NCBI GenBank assembly: GCA_003138485.1
Contig: PLGF01000139.1
Location: 1-46,236, forward strand
Length of the DNA: 46,236 bases
Source: Verrucomicrobiales bacterium
GTDB lineage: Bacteria; Verrucomicrobiota; Verrucomicrobiia; Limisphaerales; Palsa-1400
Reading direction: 5' to 3'
Positions 2,917-12,396 of the stretch are shown here, piece after piece. Every line of letters starts with the position of its first letter. Positions within the stretch are counted from its first letter, which is position 1. Made by a program: the position numbers and the translations under genes. The notes under the pieces were generated by a model. That model made no database searches. It was not told the DNA's origin and was given only the letters and a program-made list of their open reading frames with translations.

Positions 2917-3135
2917 CCCTCCATCGTCCCCCAATTGACCGCGAATGTAAACCCGGCTGATGACCGCCAACGGGCGCATGGGCGCATCTCATTTTCCAGC
3001 AACCCGCCAGGCACGGATGCGCTGGAATGACCAATGCCTAAGCCGTCATTCTCAATCGACATGTCCGAAATCTTGACGTACTACTTTGCCATTAGGACTT
3101 GCCCCAAAAAGTGAAATGCTCCAACGGCCTCGCTG

Positions 3136-6090
3136 ATGCGAACAAACATACCTCTCGAAATCATCGGCAACTGCGCGGACCCCGCGCGAGTCAAAGCGTG
3201 GCTGGAGCGGGTTCCCGCCGACGGCGCCGGCGTGCGCTGGCAGGAACTCTCCGCCGCCCAGGCCCGCGTGCTGGTGTCCCTCATCAGCGGTTCTCAGGCC
3301 GCCGCCGAACTGCTGCGCGCCCACCCAGACTGGCTGCCGCCGTTGCTCGAACCGGGTGCGGTGGAGCATCCCCGCCAGGAACAGGGCCTGCGCCGCGAGG
3401 TTGGGCAATGGCTGGCGCCCTTGCTGCAACGCGGCGAATATGAAGCCGCGTTCGGCCAGTTGCGCCTCTTCAAGCAGCGCGAAATGCTGCGGATCGCGGC
3501 GCGCGATCTGGCCCGCCTTGGCCCTCTCTTCCAGATCATGCGGGAGATTTCCAACGTCGCCGACCTTTGCCTCCAATCCGTCTTTCGCCTTTGCCACCGC
3601 CGATTGACCGGGCGCCTCGGCTCCCCGCGCCACCTCGACGCCCGGCAGCAGTGGCAGGAAACCACTTTTTCCGTCCTCGGCCTGGGCAAGCTGGGGGGAC
3701 AGGAATTGAATTACAGTTCGGATGTCGATGTTCTTTTTGTCTATGGCGAGGAAGGGCGCGTTTTCAAGGGCGCGCCCACCGGCGGCGAACCATCGGGCGG
3801 CGGCCTCTCCAATCACCAGTTCTTTACGCGCCTGGCGGAGATGATGATCGACGAAATCCGAACCATGACCGCCGATGGCTCTCTTTATCGCATCGACCTC
3901 CGTCTGCGGCCCGAAGGCAAAGGGGGGCCGCTGACCCGTTCCCTGGCCAGTTACGAGAACTACTATTCGCAATGGGGCCAGACATGGGAGCGGATGATGC
4001 TCATCAAGGCCCGGCCCGTCGCGGGCGACCCCTCCCTGGGCGCCGAATTCATCGAAATGACCCAGTCGTTCCGCTACCCGCGTTCCCTGAGCCGGCGGAC
4101 CTTGCGCGAGGTCGCCGCTGTCAAGACACGGATTGAAACCGAGATCGTCAAACAGGGGGAACTCGACCGCAACGTCAAACTGGGCCGCGGCGGGATCCGC
4201 GAGATTGAATTCATCGCCCAGACGCTTCAACTCCTCCACGCCGGCCGCCAGCCTTTCCTCCAAGGCACGGCCACCGTTCCCGTGCTTGAAAAAATGGCCC
4301 AATACTCTCTCCTGCCCGCCGAAGACGCCGCCCAATTGTCCGACGCTTACATCTTCTTCCGCGAAGTCGAGCACCGCTTGCAGATGGAATCCGGCCAGCA
4401 AACCCACACCATCCCCGCCGAGCGCCGGCCCCTCCTGCGACTGGCCCGCCTGATGGGCTGCGCCACGCCGGCCCGATTCGAGGCGGCCCGCCGCAAGCAC
4501 GCCGGCGCCGTTCGCAGGATTTACGACCATCTCCTGGCTGGCGACGAGCCGCCCGCGCCGGATTTGCCGCCCCTGGATTCGCCCGAAGCGACCGCGCCCT
4601 GGAAGGATTTGTTGACGCGCAGCGGCTTCCGCGACGCCGACAGCGCCTTTGGCATGGTCAAACTTTTTATCCTGGGGCCGGACTACGCCCATGTTTCCGC
4701 GCGCACGGTCGAATTGGCGAGCGAACTGTGGCCGCGCTTCCTGGCGATGTGCCCGCGCCTTGAGTCCGCCGAAGCGGGCACGCCGGGGCGCGTTTTGTCG
4801 GACCCGGACCGCGTGCTGGTGCGCCTGGCCGGCTATATCGAAGCCTACGGCGCGCGGGCGCCGCTCTACGAGTTGTGGATTCATAACCCCTCGCTCTTCG
4901 AGTTGTTGCTGCTCTTGTTCGACCGCTCGGAATTCCTTGCCGAACGCGCCGTCCGCGCCCCCGACCTGGTGGACGAACTGGAATTGAGCGGACGCCTCAA
5001 CCGCTCCAAAGGCCCCGGCGAAATCCTGGCCGATTTGCGCCACGGCGTCGGCGACGCCGATCAGGGGCTGTGGTTGCGCCGGTATCATCAAGCCGAATTG
5101 ATGCGCATCGGCTTGCGCGACATACTCGGCCTGGCCGATTTCGAGCATAATCTCCTGGAACTCTCCGGCCTGGCCGACGCCTGCCTTCAATACGGCGTCG
5201 ATGTCTTGATGCGCCGGCACAGCTTGAAGTCCGCCCCCTTCTGCGTGGTCGGCCTCGGCAAATTGGGCGGACGCGAGATCAATTATGGTTCCGACCTTGA
5301 CATTGTGTTCGTGGCCCGTGCTGGAGCGGCGAATCTGCCGCAATGCCAGCGCCTGGCTGTGGAGTTTCTGGAGCTTATTTCGGCTCAAACCGAATCGGGC
5401 GCCACCTTCCAACTCGACGCCCGCCTCCGGCCCGACGGCGAAAAGGGTCTCCTGGTCAACACTCTGGAAGCCAACCAGGACTATTACCGCAAGCGGGCGG
5501 GACTCTGGGAAATCCAGGCCCTGACACGCGCCCGCGCCATTGCCGGCGACCTGCAAGTGGGCGCGATGTACGAGCGGATGGCCGGGGCGCTGGGCAATTT
5601 TTCCCCGAAAAACGTCGCCGCCAAAGCCGTCCCGGCCGCCTATACGCCCTCATGGCTCGCCGAAATCGACCAGATGCGCCAGCGCGTCGCCAACGAGCGC
5701 ACGCCGGCCGGCATGGACCATTTGGCGATCAAAACCGGCGTCGGCGGGCTGATGGACGCGGAATTCCTGGCCCAAGCCCTATGCCTGGCTCATGGCTGGC
5801 AGGAACCCAACACTCTCCAGGCCTTGCGCCGGGCGCGGGAAACGGGAGTCCTGGCGGTGGCTGACGCGGAAGCCCTCCTGGGTAACTACCTTCAATTGCG
5901 GCGAATTGAAGGCATCCTGCGCCGCTGGAGTTTCGAGGGCGAAACCCTCCTGCCCGACGAGCCGGCCCCCTTCCAACGCGTCGCCGTCCGATGCGGCTAC
6001 GCCGGCGCCGCCCAATTCCGCCTCGCCCTGCAAGCCATCCGCGCCGCCATCCGCGCCGTTTATCAAAAACACTTCCAGCCCGCGTCCTGA
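3136..6090 (+). CDS. glnE: Bifunctional glutamine synthetase adenylyltransferase/deadenylase
   Basis: GlnE adenylylates and deadenylylates glutamine synthetase, tuning nitrogen assimilation to PII status. The 984-residue length fits the full two-domain enzyme. The N-terminal (adenylyl-removing) nucleotidyltransferase domain shows GLGKLGGQELNYSSDVDVLF at about residues 180-199. The C-terminal (adenylylating) domain shows GLGKLGGREINYGSDLDIVF at about 705-724. Each has the DxD metal-binding pair and a downstream 'D.RLRP.G..G.L' motif (IDLRLRPEGKGGPL and LDARLRPDGEKGLL). A GGIREIEF motif joins the two parts. No glnA or glnB lies nearby. A very long antisense frame covers much of this gene and is judged a shadow. 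Confidence 0.96.
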   Translation: MRTNIPLEIIGNCADPARVKAWLERVPADGAGVRWQELSAAQARVLVSLISGSQAAAELLRAHPDWLPPLLEPGAVEHPRQEQGLRREVGQWLAPLLQRGEYEAAFGQLRLFKQREMLRIAARDLARLGPLFQIMREISNVADLCLQSVFRLCHRRLTGRLGSPRHLDARQQWQETTFSVLGLGKLGGQELNYSSDVDVLFVYGEEGRVFKGAPTGGEPSGGGLSNHQFFTRLAEMMIDEIRTMTADGSLYRIDLRLRPEGKGGPLTRSLASYENYYSQWGQTWERMMLIKARPVAGDPSLGAEFIEMTQSFRYPRSLSRRTLREVAAVKTRIETEIVKQGELDRNVKLGRGGIREIEFIAQTLQLLHAGRQPFLQGTATVPVLEKMAQYSLLPAEDAAQLSDAYIFFREVEHRLQMESGQQTHTIPAERRPLLRLARLMGCATPARFEAARRKHAGAVRRIYDHLLAGDEPPAPDLPPLDSPEATAPWKDLLTRSGFRDADSAFGMVKLFILGPDYAHVSARTVELASELWPRFLAMCPRLESAEAGTPGRVLSDPDRVLVRLAGYIEAYGARAPLYELWIHNPSLFELLLLLFDRSEFLAERAVRAPDLVDELELSGRLNRSKGPGEILADLRHGVGDADQGLWLRRYHQAELMRIGLRDILGLADFEHNLLELSGLADACLQYGVDVLMRRHSLKSAPFCVVGLGKLGGREINYGSDLDIVFVARAGAANLPQCQRLAVEFLELISAQTESGATFQLDARLRPDGEKGLLVNTLEANQDYYRKRAGLWEIQALTRARAIAGDLQVGAMYERMAGALGNFSPKNVAAKAVPAAYTPSWLAEIDQMRQRVANERTPAGMDHLAIKTGVGGLMDAEFLAQALCLAHGWQEPNTLQALRRARETGVLAVADAEALLGNYLQLRRIEGILRRWSFEGETLLPDEPAPFQRVAVRCGYAGAAQFRLALQAIRAAIRAVYQKHFQPAS

Positions 6091-6145
6091 ATTGAAGTTT
6101 GGAAAGTTCTGTCCGATTTATGCCAAGTCGTAGATTTATTAGTGG

Positions 6146-7717
6146 ATGCAGGACTTGAACGACATTGAATTGCTTGACCGTTACGCCACGAAAGGCAGCG
6201 AGGAGGCGTTCGCCGCGCTCGTTGCGCGGCATGTCAACCTGGTCTATTCCGTCGCTCTGCGCCATGCCGGCAACCCGCATCTGGCTGAAGATGTCACCCA
6301 GACCGTTTTCATCCTGCTTGCCCGCAAGGCGCATCTGTTCGGCAAAAGAACCATCCTCCAGGGCTGGCTCCACAAAACCGCCTGGTTTACCGCCGACAAC
6401 ATTCTCAAAACCACCATCCGGCGGCAAAACCGCGAACAGGAGGCCTTTGTGCAATCGCGCTTGAACGAACCGGGATCCGACATCTGGGCGCAAGTCGCAC
6501 CGCTGCTGGACAGCGCGATCGCCGGATTGAACGAAAAGGACCGCAACGCCATCGTGCTCCGATTTTTTAACGGCCGGAAACTCAGCGAGGTGGGAGCCGC
6601 CCTGGGCACCAGTGAAGATGGCGCCACCAAACGAGTCAATCGCGCGGTGGAGAAACTGCGCGATTATTTCACCAAGCGCGGGGTTGTGCTGTCGGCAGCC
6701 ACCCTGACCGCCATCATGGCCGCCAATTCCGTCCAGGCCGCTCCGGCGGGTCTGGCCACCGCCACCACCGCCGCATCGCTGGCCGGGGCGGCCGCCACAG
6801 GTTTGTCCGGTCTCATTACAACTGTAACGAAAGTTATCATTATGTATAAAAAATCATCCGCGGTATTGGGAATCGCCCTGGCTGCCGCTGTCGCGGCGCC
6901 ATTCATCGTCGCCAAAGCCGAACCGACGCCCGCCGGACCGCCGCCCTTCCAGTATGGATTGTATGTCCACTTCGGCATATCGACTTTTGCCGGGTATCGG
7001 GGAGCCACGGCTACGGGGGACGCCCCCGCCGAACGTTATGCCCCCGCCGGCTTGGATGTCGCCGGCTGGATTCGGACGGCGAAGCAGGCGGGGATGGATT
7101 GCGCCGTTCTCACCGTCAAGCACGAGGCGGGTTTCTGCCTGTGGGACGCCGACAATTACGACTACGACGTGGCCAACAGTCCGGTAAAAACGGACGTCGT
7201 GGCGGAATTCATGGCCGCGTGCAAAACCGAAGGCATCATGCCGGGCATTCATTATTCCATTCCCGACGCGTACAACGAAGGCACGGTCATGTTCAACGGA
7301 CCTGTCTCCGCGGAGTATTTCGAGTTGATCAAGAGACAGACGAAGGAACTGCACACCAAATACCCGGAGATCAAGGTCCAGGTGTTTGACATTGCGTACC
7401 GACTTTCGAAAAGCCAGTTGCAGGAACTCCGTCAGACGGTGAAAGCCGTGAACCCGTCGTGCGCCGTTCTTTGCGAAATGGGCAATGCCTCGCAATCAAA
7501 ATACGCTTGCGACACGGTGAACCAAGGGTGGTTTTGGGCGCCCAATGCCCAGATCACCCCGGCTCAGAAACTCTACGCGGAATACTCCGACGCGCGCGCC
7601 AAGGGATTCCCCTTCCTGCTCAACGTCGGTCCGGATAGATCCGGGCACATCCCCGACCAAGACACCGCCACGCTGATGGAGATGAAGCGGCTGATCGGGC
7701 AAAACCCTCCGCAGTAA
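6146..7717 (+). CDS. ECF sigma factor fused to a GH29 alpha-L-fucosidase-like domain
   Basis: This 523-residue single frame joins two unrelated modules. Residues 1-175 are an ECF sigma-70 factor: region 2 shows AFAALVARHVNLVYSVALRH and DVTQTVFILLARKA, and region 4 shows LNEKDRNAIVLRFFNGRKLSEVGAALG. An Ala-rich linker (185-230) leads to a hydrophobic segment (about 239-255) beginning MYKKSS at Met233. Residues about 268-520 resemble glycoside hydrolase family 29: YGLYVHFGISTF, AVLTVKHEAGFCLWDAD, YDYDVANSPVKTDVV, KTEGIMPGIHYS and FLLNVGPDRSGHIP. The family's KHHDG is KHEAG here. The usual nucleophile context WFDG becomes VFDIAY (Asp415), so catalysis is uncertain. Met233 could be an internal start that yields a secreted enzyme with the signal-like end AKA-EP. 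The reading frame is continuous across the junction. Confidence 0.88.
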   Translation: MQDLNDIELLDRYATKGSEEAFAALVARHVNLVYSVALRHAGNPHLAEDVTQTVFILLARKAHLFGKRTILQGWLHKTAWFTADNILKTTIRRQNREQEAFVQSRLNEPGSDIWAQVAPLLDSAIAGLNEKDRNAIVLRFFNGRKLSEVGAALGTSEDGATKRVNRAVEKLRDYFTKRGVVLSAATLTAIMAANSVQAAPAGLATATTAASLAGAAATGLSGLITTVTKVIIMYKKSSAVLGIALAAAVAAPFIVAKAEPTPAGPPPFQYGLYVHFGISTFAGYRGATATGDAPAERYAPAGLDVAGWIRTAKQAGMDCAVLTVKHEAGFCLWDADNYDYDVANSPVKTDVVAEFMAACKTEGIMPGIHYSIPDAYNEGTVMFNGPVSAEYFELIKRQTKELHTKYPEIKVQVFDIAYRLSKSQLQELRQTVKAVNPSCAVLCEMGNASQSKYACDTVNQGWFWAPNAQITPAQKLYAEYSDARAKGFPFLLNVGPDRSGHIPDQDTATLMEMKRLIGQNPPQ

Positions 7718-7951
7718 AGGGAAGCTCTGAATTACTTGAAAGCAAGGCCGACCAAGGCAAGACGAGTTGATTGCCAACCGGGGCGATTCCCAAGGCCGGG
7801 GGCGCGGTCACGGTGAAGGCGTTGATGCGATTACCGCCTGAAGGCGGGACACGCGACGCCTGAACCGCCCAAAAGCGGGACAGGGTTCCAGGTGAAATAC
7901 GAGACCGACGGCATTTTCCAAGCGCGGCATTGCCGCTGTATATAACATGGC
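7718..7951. other. Gap between the sigma-GH29 gene and the anchor-domain gene
   Basis: I see no gene here. A short palindrome CCGCCTGAAGGCGG lies near the middle, and the AT-rich sequence TGTATATAAC just before ATG 7952 could be a -10 element. No convincing -35 pairs with it. Confidence 0.3.
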
Positions 7952-9199
7952 ATGAGTTTAGCTATACAAAATCGCATGGAAAAATTACGATTATTTTGCA
8001 GGATTCTTCTCACAAGCGCCGCGGTGGCTGTCATTCAACCCGCCCACGCACAAAACCTTGTCGTCAACAGCAATTTCGCCACCGGCGATTTCACCGGCTG
8101 GATGGTCGCCGAGACCGGCAGCGGCGGCAGCCCCCACGACTACGGAGTCACCTCCGCAACCGATGGCGGCTCGAAGGTCCCAAATCCCGGAGACACTTAC
8201 GGGGCTTATTTCAATCCGGCGGGCGGTGTGATGAGTCTGACGCAAACGGTGGATATTCCCGCCGCCGGGACTTATCTGATAAGTTGCGCCGTGGAGCCGG
8301 TGGTTGACGATCAGGATACCTTGACCATCTCTCTGGGCGGCGCGGCTGTGTTCACCACGAATTTCGAGTTTGGGAGTCCTTTCACTCAGATCAGCGTTTC
8401 GGCCTCGGCGGCGGCCGGTTCGCAGGTGTTGGAATTCCAATTCACCCCCGGCAGCGGGCCGATGTTTTTTGACGACGCGGGTCTGGTCGCCGAGGCCGTG
8501 GCTCCGACACCGACTCCTTGTTCGGTTTTGGGAAGCGCCGCCGCGGGGGCAGTCGTCGGATTAAATGGCACGCGGATTCAAAACGTCTTCGCGAACATCA
8601 GCGGCGACGTGTGTGTTTCCCAGGGCGGCTGGCTGGACAACGTGCCTCCCAGCACGATCACCGGCAGCGTCTTCGAATTTAAAAACGGCCAATACTCCGG
8701 CCGCGGCCGCCTCGAGGGAAAATTGACAGTGAACGCGGCGCTGCTCAACACGGTCAACGAGGACGCCCTGAACGCCGCCGCGACGGTCGCCGCGATGACG
8801 CCCACACAGGTGTTTAAAACAATTCGGCGCCCCACGGTGATTACCGGAAACGGCGGTGTCAACGTGATTGACATCAATGGAAACATCACCGACTCCGTCG
8901 TGCTCAGCGGAAACGCCCACGATGTGTTCTTCATCAACGTCTCGGGAACGATTGACCTGCGCGACCGCGCGACCCTTGCAGTGGCCGGAGGTGTGACCGC
9001 GGGCGCCGTGCTTTACAATCTCACCGGAACCGGCGCCGTCGAGATTCATGTCCGCAATGTCGTGAACGGGACGATTCTGGCTCCCAATTACAGTCTCGAG
9101 CTCGACGGCGACTTCAATGGCGCGGTCATCGGCGGCGGCAGAAACAAGGCGATCAACCTGTTCGAAGCGCGGGTCACTCAAGCGGCCTGCCCTCAATGA
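7952..9199 (+). CDS. Secreted protein with CBM-like and choice-of-anchor A-like domains
   Basis: The 415-residue product starts with a signal peptide (LFCRILLTSAAVAVIQPAHA, cleavage near PAHA-QN). Residues about 34-175 form a jelly-roll-like region (NLVVNSNFATGDFTGW to FFDDAGLV), typical of carbohydrate-binding-like modules that open with 'vvNgdFe.g...gW'. The second half (about 190-410) resembles choice-of-anchor A / adhesin domains: NISGDVCVSQGG, VNVIDINGNI, HDVFFINVSG, GTILAPNYSLELDG and NGAVIGGG. The recurrent Asn/Gly pattern suggests beta-helix or beta-sandwich folding. Related proteins in this phylum often end in a PEP-CTERM sorting tail, and none is visible here (it ends TQAACPQ). Initiation could be at 7952 or at ATG 7976 (MEKLRLF). 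The function is probably surface attachment or glycan binding, which is an inference. Confidence 0.75.
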   Translation: MSLAIQNRMEKLRLFCRILLTSAAVAVIQPAHAQNLVVNSNFATGDFTGWMVAETGSGGSPHDYGVTSATDGGSKVPNPGDTYGAYFNPAGGVMSLTQTVDIPAAGTYLISCAVEPVVDDQDTLTISLGGAAVFTTNFEFGSPFTQISVSASAAAGSQVLEFQFTPGSGPMFFDDAGLVAEAVAPTPTPCSVLGSAAAGAVVGLNGTRIQNVFANISGDVCVSQGGWLDNVPPSTITGSVFEFKNGQYSGRGRLEGKLTVNAALLNTVNEDALNAAATVAAMTPTQVFKTIRRPTVITGNGGVNVIDINGNITDSVVLSGNAHDVFFINVSGTIDLRDRATLAVAGGVTAGAVLYNLTGTGAVEIHVRNVVNGTILAPNYSLELDGDFNGAVIGGGRNKAINLFEARVTQAACPQ

Positions 9200-9638: not shown

Positions 9639-12239
9639 TCACGGCGATTTCAGCCGGTAAAATGCGTCCGATCCCGCTGCGCTGTCGGTGAACGCGTTCA
9701 TGCTGTTGGTCAGAAAGGGCAACTCCGCCGGCGCCGTCCAGCCGTTGGAAAGCGCCAGATTGGTGCTGCGTTGCAGCAAGAAACTCACTGAGGATGCCGG
9801 CCACGTCAGGAGCAGTTCCGGGGGATTTGTCAACCACTCGATGCTCATGGTGCGCTGGGCCGCGGAAACGAACCGGGCGACGGCCGAGGCTGTGTTCCCG
9901 CTGGAATCGAGGTTCCCTTCGACAAATCCCATGCTGGCGATATTGGTGGCCGCGCCGGCGCCGGTCGAGGCCGCCACGACCTGCATCGTGGCGCTGGTGT
10001 TGTTGGTCAGGATGCCGATGTCGCATACGACCTGGCCGTTGTCATAGACGCATTGCCCGGCGCTGCTCGCGGAGGAAACGTAGGTCATCAAGCCCGGCAC
10101 GGCGTCGGTCACCGAGAGGCCCGTGATGATCGACGGCCCTTCGTTCGTCACCACCAACTCATAAGTGACGTTGGTGCCCGGCCCGGAGATCGCGGGGCTG
10201 GCCGTCTTTGTCAACACTAACAGGCTCGGCTTCGTGACGGTGAAACTGTTCGAACTGGCGTCGTTCCCGTAGGGCGTGACAACGGTGATCGGGCCGCTGG
10301 CGCCCCCCGCGGGCACGGTGGCCCGCAACTGGTTGGTGGAGGCCGTGAAGACCGGCGCGTTGACTCCGCCGAATTGCACCGCCGTCACGTCAAAGAGGCT
10401 CGTTCCGCTCAGGGTGACGACCGTGCCCGCCGGGCCGATGCCAGGGGTGAAGGAGTATATTTTGGGAAGGATGGCGAAGACGTTGGTGCTGATGATGAGG
10501 CCGCCGGGGGCGGTGATTTCGATCAACCCGCTGCCGGCGTTGGTCGGCACGGTCGCGGTGATTTGCGTGGCGGAAGCGGCATAATTATAGGCGACTCCAT
10601 TGATTGTCATGGCGCTGGCATTGATGAAATTGCGGCCCGTAACGGTGAGCGTCGCGTTGACAATGGCGGCATTGGAGCTCAAGCCGGTGATCCAGGGCTG
10701 AAGGTAGAAGTAAGCGGAGCTGGCGCCCGATCCTTTGTTGTTAAACACGGTCACCGGCCCGGAACTGGCGCCGGACGGCACGGTCACGATCAGCTCCGAC
10801 GTTGAGGTCGGAGTCTGGTAAGCGGCCGGGACGCCGTTGAACTCCACAGCGGGATTGGCCAGATTGGCAAAATTGGCGCCGCTCAGGGTCACGCTCTGGC
10901 CGCGCACGCCGCCGGCCGGAATGAAACCGCTGACCACGGGGGCGGCGGTGGCGAAGACGGTGAAATTGCTGCTGGTGATGTAGCTGGAAGAACCGGCTGT
11001 CACTTTGATCGCGCCGGTGGAGGCGCCGGCGGGAACCTTCGCGGAGATTTGCGTGCCGCCCGCGCCCGTCTCTGAGAACGACGCGCTGACGCCGTTAAAG
11101 GTGACACTTCCCACTCCAGCCAAATTCAATCCGTCGATGGTCACGTTCGTTCCAGCCGCGCCCAGAACGGGAGTGAAATCCGTCACCAACGGCGCAGTGG
11201 CGTTGGTGAAGTTGGTGCTGGTTGTAAAGCTGCCCTTGGCCGTGGTGACCTTGATTGGTCCGGCGCCCGACCCCGGCGGAGGATAGACCTGGATTTGACC
11301 GCTGGAGTCGCCCGTTATGGTTGCGGTCTTGCCATTGAAGGTCACGCTGGTAGCCGACGCCAGGTTCAGGCCATCGATCGTCACCGGGGTATTGGTCGTC
11401 CCAATCGTCGGGCTGAAGTCCGTGACGATGGGACCGATGCCGGTGAAAAACTCGTTGGTGTTGGTAACGGAGCCATCGGCGGTGGTGACACTAATATCCC
11501 CGCTTGTCGCCCCTGAGGGCACAGTGGCGTTCAATTGCGAGGTGGAGACGATTGAAGCGACGGCGGTTGCGCCATTGAATTTGACCGTGACCGGCGTGAA
11601 GAAATTTCCCCCGTTGATGACCACAGCCGCGCCGATGGCCGCTGCCGCGGGCGAGAACCCCGTGATGGTGGGCGCGCTGGAAGTGATAAAGCTATTGGTG
11701 CTGACATTGGTTCCGGCGCTGGTGATGACGGTGATCGGGCCGTTGGCCGCGCCGGCCGGGACGGTCACCACCACCTCGGTCAAAGCCACGACGCTGCCGC
11801 TGACCGAAGCGTTCGTCCCGGAGAAGACAACGATGGTGCCGTTGGTGACAAAATTGGCGCCCTGGATGGAAACGATCGTCGGGGCGGTTCCAGTGGATGG
11901 GGAGAAACCGGTGATGACCGGCGCCACCAGAAAACTGGACGGACTGGTCAGCGGGCTGGAACCGACGTCCACTTCCAGCGGCCCGCTGGTGGCTCCCAGC
12001 GGCACGACAAATTGCAATTGACTGTCTGAAACTATCGTGAAATCCGCCGGCGTCGGCGCGAAGTTGTTCAGCTTCACCAAAGTCGCGCCGGACAATCCCG
12101 ATCCGTTCACGGTAATGACATTGCCCGGCTGGCCAAAGGAGGGAGAGAAACCGGTAATGCCCGCCGCCAGCCCCGCCAAAGGCAGGCAAAGGCAAAGCAT
12201 CCCCGCCGCCGCCGGCGGGAATAAAAACAACCTCCTCAT
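9639..12239 (-). CDS. Secreted TIG/IPT-repeat protein with DUF11 domain
   Basis: This 866-residue product begins with a signal peptide (MRRLFLFPPAAAGMLCLCLP, cleavage near GLAA). Eight consecutive TIG/IPT immunoglobulin-like repeats of about 76-84 residues follow. Each opens 'ITGFSP..G..G' or 'VTDFTP..G' and contains '.VTF.G..A', 'VP.GA.SG.I.V' and a closing Asn-Ser-Phe strand. After them come a DUF11-type repeat (LTKTASPAISGPGTNVTYEL and VTDAVPGLMTYVSS) and a C-terminal beta-rich domain (LLTWPASSVSFLLQRSTNLA to DAFYRLKSP). The last resembles the 'W....FLLQ.S.NL...W' tail common in secreted proteins of this phylum. The open frame reaches 12320, but ATG 12239 starts the signal peptide. It is probably an extracellular adhesin or stalk. 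Confidence 0.85.
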   Translation of the reverse strand: MRRLFLFPPAAAGMLCLCLPLAGLAAGITGFSPSFGQPGNVITVNGSGLSGATLVKLNNFAPTPADFTIVSDSQLQFVVPLGATSGPLEVDVGSSPLTSPSSFLVAPVITGFSPSTGTAPTIVSIQGANFVTNGTIVVFSGTNASVSGSVVALTEVVVTVPAGAANGPITVITSAGTNVSTNSFITSSAPTITGFSPAAAAIGAAVVINGGNFFTPVTVKFNGATAVASIVSTSQLNATVPSGATSGDISVTTADGSVTNTNEFFTGIGPIVTDFSPTIGTTNTPVTIDGLNLASATSVTFNGKTATITGDSSGQIQVYPPPGSGAGPIKVTTAKGSFTTSTNFTNATAPLVTDFTPVLGAAGTNVTIDGLNLAGVGSVTFNGVSASFSETGAGGTQISAKVPAGASTGAIKVTAGSSSYITSSNFTVFATAAPVVSGFIPAGGVRGQSVTLSGANFANLANPAVEFNGVPAAYQTPTSTSELIVTVPSGASSGPVTVFNNKGSGASSAYFYLQPWITGLSSNAAIVNATLTVTGRNFINASAMTINGVAYNYAASATQITATVPTNAGSGLIEITAPGGLIISTNVFAILPKIYSFTPGIGPAGTVVTLSGTSLFDVTAVQFGGVNAPVFTASTNQLRATVPAGGASGPITVVTPYGNDASSNSFTVTKPSLLVLTKTASPAISGPGTNVTYELVVTNEGPSIITGLSVTDAVPGLMTYVSSASSAGQCVYDNGQVVCDIGILTNNTSATMQVVAASTGAGAATNIASMGFVEGNLDSSGNTASAVARFVSAAQRTMSIEWLTNPPELLLTWPASSVSFLLQRSTNLALSNGWTAPAELPFLTNSMNAFTDSAAGSDAFYRLKSP

Positions 12240-12396
12240 TGCGCCCCATGTTCCAGGCCGCCTAATCATATCTGTCAAAAGTAACGTCACGGACGACCCC
12301 CAATTCGATTCCGCCGGCAATCTTATGTGTTTTGGCGGGTTTGCGCCAGTTTAAGTTCGCAATGGCGCCCGGAATAAAATTTGTGCCGGCCGGGGC

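Follow-up and report, generated by a model that had tools for sequence, protein, structure and literature searches.

A conserved single-frame fusion of an ECF sigma factor and a GH29-related domain, with a predicted membrane helix between them, in a Verrucomicrobiales bacterium

The gene described here lies in a stretch of 46,236 nucleotides, called the window, which covers positions 1 to 46,236 of contig PLGF01000139.1 of a Verrucomicrobiales bacterium (GCA_003138485.1). It starts with ATG, contains no internal stop codon and encodes, in a conserved frame, an ECF sigma factor and a GH29-related domain, with a predicted membrane helix between the two (Table 1). The open reading frame, the Pfam matches and the hydropathy agreed on this arrangement, as an earlier sequence-only reading of the locus had described it. 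Sigma70_r2 and Sigma70_r4 were matched with E values of 3e-9 and 8.2e-9, both above the Pfam cut-offs and with little sequence between them, as in ECF (group 4) sigma factors, and TIGR02937 (sigma70-ECF) gave 62.8 bits at a cut-off of 42.9. Alpha_L_fucos (PF01120) was matched at residues 295-517 with an E value of 9.7e-27 and 94.7 bits at a cut-off of 25.2 bits. The GH29 assignment of the sequence-only reading held when residues 265-523 were searched alone (PF01120, E 6.1e-28), and structural prediction gave a GH29-type fold near active fucosidases; profile and predicted fold thus both place the domain in GH29. A Pfam scan of ten other open reading frames in the window found no glycoside hydrolase and no glycan importer. 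At a distance of 5-8 kb from the gene lie coding sequences for a sugar kinase of the pfkB type and for a protein like PTS enzyme I. The minus strand at 9639-12320 encodes a long, surface-protein-like protein with six IPT/TIG repeat stretches and a DUF11 domain.

Table 1. Positions of the gene, its parts and related features (window coordinates, except for the last row)
Feature	Position	Strand	Basis or remark
ECF-promoter-like motif CTGTCCGATTT-7-GTCGTAGATT	6109..6136	+	ends 9 bases before the start codon
Gene for ECF sigma factor, linker, membrane helix and GH29-type domain	6146..7717	+	ORF, Pfam and conserved fusion; 523 aa
Sigma region 2, residues 25-95	6218..6430	+	PF04542
Sigma region 4, residues 124-172	6515..6661	+	PF04545 and PF08281
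Linker, residues 179-232	6680..6841	+	family alignment; first part conserved (RRG...SVQAAPAGLA...)
Met233, predicted internal start of a sigma-less product	6842..6844	+	statistical mRNA signature
Predicted membrane helix, residues 237-255	6854..6910	+	hydropathy
GH29-type (PF01120) domain, residues 265-523	6938..7714	+	Pfam
KHEAG, residues 325-329	7118..7132	+	KHHDG in GH29 enzymes
Asp415, position of the GH29 catalytic nucleophile, kept	7388..7390	+	alignment to 8ayr
Lentisphaerae MAG Ser/Thr kinases ending in Laminin_G_3 and a short GH29 domain	L053 3496-6765; L054 3457-6762		

Ten sequence-database protein clusters with sigma domains and PF01120 (P0001, P0002, P0004, P0005, P0006, P0007, P0024, P0121, P0124 and P0125) were obtained from the best 120 of 5489 N-terminal matches and from 76 C-terminal matches. 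P0001 is the cluster of the window protein itself. The nine others, sigma-GH29 fusions of the kind that the sequence-only reading had suggested looking for, keep the same frame at the protein level and are 50-89% identical to the window protein; in P0024 the first part is missing at a contig end. P0003 exits the frame after about 285 residues, and P0122 and P0123 are pieces. The same junction was kept in clusters from several sources, which speaks against a frameshift between modules that are normally separate genes, the event that was named earlier as fatal to a one-protein reading. Scanning genome contigs for the whole fusion found no relative.

Comparison of N-terminal parts placed the gene in a large family whose end domains are exchangeable; it is no isolated oddity. 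Twelve other loci of the same genome (L002-L013) match the N-terminal part with 40-53% identity and with matches that end at residues 233-263; in L013 the match starts only at residue 130. The end parts of these loci include Laminin_G_3 (L006, L009), GH2 beta-galactosidase-type domains (L010/L021) and CarboxypepD_reg (L011/L022), and those of L002, L003, L005 and L012 gave zero Pfam matches. N-terminal matches were found in 58 of 58 genomes searched, the weak ones being matches to any ECF sigma factor. The family rows are good matches to the window N-terminus, with 60 stretches added to the other loci: 114 frame pieces were taken at E <= 1e-15, five were discarded for a match that stopped short of residue 200, merging of duplicates left 105 rows, and removal of one row without the helix region gave 104. 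L011/L022 is absent from these rows, and one gene (L010 = L021) was counted twice among the 104 rows and among the 95 rows with Met described below, and was removed in the second control of the upstream motif. Because the rows were chosen by their match to the window N-terminus, the counts favour the kin of the window gene, and because the paralogs are not independent, the standard errors are too small.

The sigma domains, the linker and the helix region are common to about 100 relatives, which are variable beyond the helix. Closed frames were found in 101 of the 104 rows, and all but one of the 101 extend at least 40 residues beyond position 256 (median 258). The 102 C-terminal parts gave matches to 82 Pfam families. 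A dominant C-terminal domain was considered for the family and ruled out by these counts, as no Pfam family occurs in more than 6 of 102, the commonest being DUF3738. All three traits of the family, the conserved linker, a Met before the helix and an upstream motif, are present in the window gene. Several side observations were made on family members. L021 holds two tandem family genes at 1501-2964 and 2984-6244 (G000:C70), with 19 bases between them as listed; the second encodes 1086 aa with sigma, linker and helix followed by GH2 beta-galactosidase-type domains. At L004, 1213-2187 on the minus strand, a family gene is broken after the pre-helix Met, its frame entering transposase-like sequence, and L013, L014 and L016 are copies in the same genome that are apparently truncated or frame-broken (all by eye). 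The nearest sigma relatives outside the GH29 set, among the matches listed, are P0008-P0017, with PF12543 (DUF3738) as the end part.

G179 and P200 of the linker were each kept in 102 of the 104 rows, and A199 in 98. The one strong hydrophobic segment of the window protein has a 19-residue Kyte-Doolittle mean of 2.16. It is preceded by YKK and followed at residues 256-259 by AKA-E, which resembles a signal peptidase site by eye. The structure model drew a helix at 239-256, with pLDDT below 50 for both linker and helix. Hydropathy of the helix region passed 1.6 in 76 of 103 rows. A weaker segment at 180-198 reached 1.44 in the window protein, and 26 of 103 rows had 1.6 or more there; as a second helix this segment would turn the topology round. 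With the single helix, the GH29-type domain is predicted to lie outside the membrane, beyond the helix. No anti-sigma domain was found by Pfam between sigma factor and helix (zf-HC2 or other; seven families at E up to 1); anti-sigma zinc-finger matches were present in 19 of 40 relatives.

The family genes share an upstream motif of two boxes, [TC]TGTC[CG][GC][AG]TTT and GGCG[GT]CCAT[TA], which are 7-8 bases apart and end about 9 bases before the start codon. With a matrix trained on the very sequences scored, 94 of 104 rows beat the best of 104 shuffles by the same matrix. In a second control the duplicate gene was removed and a new matrix was trained for each of 20 shuffled sets. The real sequences then had a median score of 20.7 against at most 9.0 in the shuffled sets, 79 of 103 family genes exceeded the best single shuffled-site score of the retrained matrices, and the spacer was 7 or 8 bases in 89 of 103 genes compared to at most 27 in the shuffled sets. 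The motif is a putative promoter. Its TGTC-N15/16-CG core resembles the ECF41 target promoter TGTCACA-n16-CGTC (PMC3426412), and autoregulation of the sigma gene would be the natural reading. A strict promoter pattern matched the genome four times (control, 0), once before the family gene L003. The open reading frames round two of the three other strict-pattern sites (L204 and L206; the third is L205) showed no clear target gene, and the window's own motif site does not fit the strict pattern. The strict pattern therefore points to no regulon. A scan of 5900-8100 for sigma70-type promoters found none. A close copy of the motif lies at L206 1501-1526 (G000:C172), with no family gene seen behind it; a sigma-like open reading frame is located beside it on the other strand (by eye).

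Of the 104 family rows, 95 carry a Met within a stretch of 19 residues about the start of the helix window; 30% would be expected. Weakness of mRNA structure was expressed as z against synonymous shuffles, in windows slid along the genes, and amounted to 1.42 ± 0.09 at the helix Met (n=95). Met codons elsewhere in the sigma part gave -0.15 ± 0.07 (n=263), and those in the C-terminal part gave -0.05 ± 0.05 (n=498). The profile peaked 2-8 codons upstream of the helix Met, with z 1.42-1.46, was about -0.5 at 60-80 codons upstream and 0.35 ± 0.13 at 120 upstream, and stayed near 0 from 30 codons downstream. GC3 round the helix Met was 0.52, with 0.68 expected. The dip was seen in all sequence types (MAW 1.60, n=35; MTT 1.48, n=27; other 1.17, n=33). 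Shuffling of the coding side alone gave 0.82 ± 0.09 for the internal site and 0.25 ± 0.11 for presumed true starts, which were chosen by a simple rule. In 67 of 95 genes the internal site ranked within the weakest 5% of windows, and the Met233 site of the window gene was the weakest of 168. Taken alone, the window gene is not significant, as 149 of 2000 synonymous shuffles were as weak. Control kinases with a hydrophobic segment (22, from 30 loci of the same genomes; some of the kinases look multi-spanning) had no dip at the segment, with z from -0.07 to 0.36 between -15 and +20 codons, 0.55 ± 0.18 at -40, and Met in 4 of 22. Membrane insertion as such therefore does not explain the dip.

These statistics make a conserved internal start at Met233 probable. 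It is possible, though rather doubtful, that they tell of a dual-product gene with no switch at all, in which the cell makes a membrane-tailed sigma factor and, separately and in excess, a short GH29-type protein that is exported or anchored, and the shared frame couples their expression. The frequent helix Met, the low GC3 and the mRNA dip, the last being absent at other Met codons and at the kinase segments, would suit such a gene, and so would residues 233-259, which read like a signal peptide with AKA-E. Ribosome-binding features gave a divided picture. Strong Shine-Dalgarno pairing (<= -4.5) was found at 24% of the sites, above all 200 synonymous shuffles (maximum 21%), it was placed at -19 to -15 in 19-22% compared to 6-8% at random sites, and the Gly codon just upstream was GGA in 22 of 31 cases against 709 of 3150. 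However, the mean Shine-Dalgarno energy equalled that of the shuffles (-1.55 vs -1.63), as did the motif counts (0.29 vs 0.30), and pairing was stronger at the remaining Met codons within the sigma part (-3.65; 32% <= -4.5). Pairing was also weak at the presumed true starts of the family genes. A smaller dip, z 0.60-0.94, was kept in the nine rows without a helix Met, among which L004 was counted although it has a Met and is interrupted after it, and the fusion P0024 has Phe in place of Met. The frame is free of stops, so ribosomes that translate the sigma part must go on to make the long form. The sequence-only reading had held that a conserved start at Met233 with two separate products would undo the one-protein view. 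The Met and the start signature were indeed conserved family-wide, but so was the long frame, and two overlapping products are therefore likelier than two separate genes.

Sigma and GH29 parts of the fusions have diverged to different degrees. The sigma parts of 7 of the 10 clusters are at least 82% identical to that of the window protein. P0121 has 47% identity to the window protein in the sigma part and 84% in the GH29 part, and its GH29 part is 91% identical to that of P0006, with 46% for sigma. Residues 1-235 of P0121 are 61% identical to L009 of the window genome, whose end domain is Laminin_G_3. Over linker and helix (181-261) P0121 shares no more than 46-53% identity with P0006 and P0002, which puts the swap point close behind the helix. 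P0124 and P0125, with 34-35% identity to the window protein in sigma and 64-68% in GH29, represent a third sigma type. By these comparisons the GH29 domain is an exchangeable module found on three sigma types. Among the matches listed from 320 genomes of the order, the GH29 part had a match of more than 49% identity only in its own genome.

A scan of genome contigs with the GH29 alignment led to two kinase fusions. The two contigs are Lentisphaerae MAG contigs. On each, a hydrophobic segment (by eye) comes after Pkinase, and the protein also has leucine-rich repeats, Laminin_G_3 and a PF01120 domain that reads KHESGFCLW. A protein search gave kinase and PF01120 together in seven clusters (P0127, P0189, P0190, P0191, P0197, P0200 and P0203), some of which may be the genes of the two MAG contigs. 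The same short GH29 domain was found with a PDZ/S41 protease (P0201, P0202, P0204) and, in other proteins, with LamG or SUMF1-type parts; on Prc-like PDZ/S41 proteases it sits in those three and in P0148. As Prc activates the fused sigma factor IutY (see below), a protease that shares the ligand is conceivable. The presence of the domain on two unrelated signalling outputs, sigma factor and kinase, is the best argument for sensing. There is a slim chance that the end domain is an inert plug, any exported domain being able to hold the sigma factor at the membrane while the signal acts on helix or linker. The diversity of the 102 C-terminal parts, the four loci whose end parts lack a Pfam match and the strong conservation of the first part of the linker would agree with this. 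A GH29 core that is 64-91% identical where the sigma parts share only 34-47%, and that recurs on kinases, points instead to selection of its own.

The active site was examined by alignment. L017 of the same genome, a full GH29 protein, was aligned with 3ues and its D172A/E217A mutant 3uet, in which the nucleophile is the D of WxDGAN and the acid/base residue the E of W.GNE.G; the D172A site of 3uet falls at the same WxDG place as D415 of the window protein. Asp occupies position 415 in 12 of 12 fusion rows with a letter there. K325, H326, E327 and Y370 are equally invariant (12 of 12), H275 is invariant in 13 of 13, and position 444 is acidic in 11 of 12 (E 9, D 2, G 1). In the window protein the Trp two residues before the nucleophile is replaced by Val (VFD; VFDIAY = 413-418). 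The acid/base Glu (E217 of 3ues) was not found, as the GNE loop is absent, and D415 is 46 residues from the GWFW motif compared to about 106 in 8ayr. In other GH29 enzymes the acid/base residue is placed elsewhere. With the GH29 alpha-L-fucosidase 8ayr of Akkermansia muciniphila the domain shares the fold, the PF01120 profile and the Asp at the nucleophile position; unlike it, the domain has only about 260 residues and lacks both the acid/base loop and one histidine of the KHH pair. In L018 1501-1782 (G000:C21) a frame of 155 codons has the start and the end of a GH29 domain and no middle, which looks like an internal loss (by eye).

KHEAG and VFDIAY were correctly noted in the sequence-only reading and taken as signs of binding and not catalysis, but the retained Asp415 had escaped mention. 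The missing acid/base loop agrees with a binding role. The KHE change is not tied to the fusion, since KHE[A/S]G also occurs in stand-alone GH29 relatives (about 320 residues, with N-termini that look signal-peptide-like by eye). The domain lacks several fucosidase active-site features and may retain weak catalysis, slow turnover being possible with D415 and an acidic residue 444 nearby. An active but tethered GH29 enzyme, with catalysis controlling the sigma factor or with the enzyme merely displayed at the membrane, is improbable. The invariant Asp, the acidic 444, a predicted fold near active fucosidases and the GH10 domain that serves as one RsgI sensor (PMC12203970) could be cited for it; the lost loop, the change from KHH to KHE and the Val before the nucleophile weigh against it, and KHES with a non-Trp residue before the nucleophile recurs on both kinases that were read. 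An artefact, chimeric assembly or a lost stop codon in a draft genome of 194 contigs and 89.67% completeness, can be dismissed on the strength of separate clusters from several sources with the same junction.

The protein is likely a transmembrane switch made of a single chain: a ligand bound by the outside domain would set the sigma factor free. A probability of about 0.55 is given to this explanation as a whole, including fusion, release, autoregulation and a sigma-less copy. The sigma factor would be held inactive at the membrane, and binding of a glycan by the outside domain would cause proteases to cut the protein, with an RseP-type site-2 protease as the candidate for the cut in the membrane. 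Once released, the sigma part would transcribe target genes, of which its own is probably one, by way of the upstream TGTC-N15/16-CG motif. The start at Met233 would probably add a sigma-less sensor copy, membrane-anchored or exported, which could dampen the response by competing for the ligand or by pairing with the long form. The tethered sigma factor is modelled on IutY, ECF52 and the RsgI sensors. A sensor that controls a fused sigma factor was also the proposal of the sequence-only reading. It gained from a domain that lies beyond the predicted helix, lacks the acid/base loop, swaps between sigma types and is reused on kinases; what changed is that the gene is now one of a large family. 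A Peptidase_M50 match that is almost complete (3-219 of 221) was found in the genome. Site-2 proteases were also found in 14 of 14 controls; as they are nearly universal in bacteria, the presence of one says little. The missing anti-sigma match, the low model confidence at linker and helix, the possible second helix and the lack of a glycoside hydrolase or glycan importer among the scanned neighbours weigh against the switch.

More tentatively, the order may hold a class of one-gene devices, in which an autoregulated ECF sigma factor carries plug-in outside sensors, retired glycosidases among them, a second start always gives a sigma-less sensor twin, and modules are exchanged with Ser/Thr kinases. 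Transmembrane control of sigma factors normally takes two proteins, and here sensor and sigma factor form one chain. With an exchangeable sensor on that chain, one promoter class could serve many outside signals by domain swap. As some end domains are relatives of enzymes or lectins with guessable ligands, the family also offers a route to learn what little-studied bacteria of this order sense. If the internal start is real, a regulator and its sensor-only partner would come from a single gene throughout the family. Among the literature matches listed, titles and abstract openings of open-licence full texts, no sigma factors of such build were described in Verrucomicrobiota.

Several known systems are similar in part. 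In Clostridium thermocellum, SigI/RsgI pairs sense biomass through outside domains such as CBM3, CBM42, PA14, GH10 and peptidase-like domains, and RsgI is cut in the membrane by RseP (PMC12203970). As in the family described here, paralogs have an inner part in common and a single membrane helix, and their outside domains, which are exchangeable, act on a sigma factor; according to the passages on RsgI the sensor resides on a separate anti-sigma factor, whereas here it is on the ECF sigma factor itself, in one frame. ECF41 has a C-terminal extension as a built-in regulator and a similar promoter, but the extension is about 100 residues long, and the passages on it in PMC3426412 describe no membrane part. 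SCO4117 of Streptomyces (ECF52) is an ECF sigma factor with a C-terminal membrane helix and an outside carbohydrate-binding domain, for which proteolytic release has been proposed (PMC8999054). ECF52, ECF48 and ECF53 share with the window protein a membrane helix after the sigma domains (hydropathy 2.16 in the window protein, at low model confidence). As described there, they differ in being from Actinobacteria and in a zinc-finger, likely anti-sigma, domain, none of which was found in the window protein, and the end domain is a different one. IutY of Pseudomonas putida (ECF243) is a sigma factor fused to a membrane regulator and is activated by Prc and RseP (PMC8999054). It differs from the protein described here in belonging to a siderophore cell-surface signalling system. 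IutY is not known to carry an enzyme-fold domain. The gene is a variant of the membrane-fused ECF sigma factors. It goes beyond a further example of that kind in how widely the sensors are exchanged, in the recurrence of its end domain on kinases and in the internal start that it likely has.
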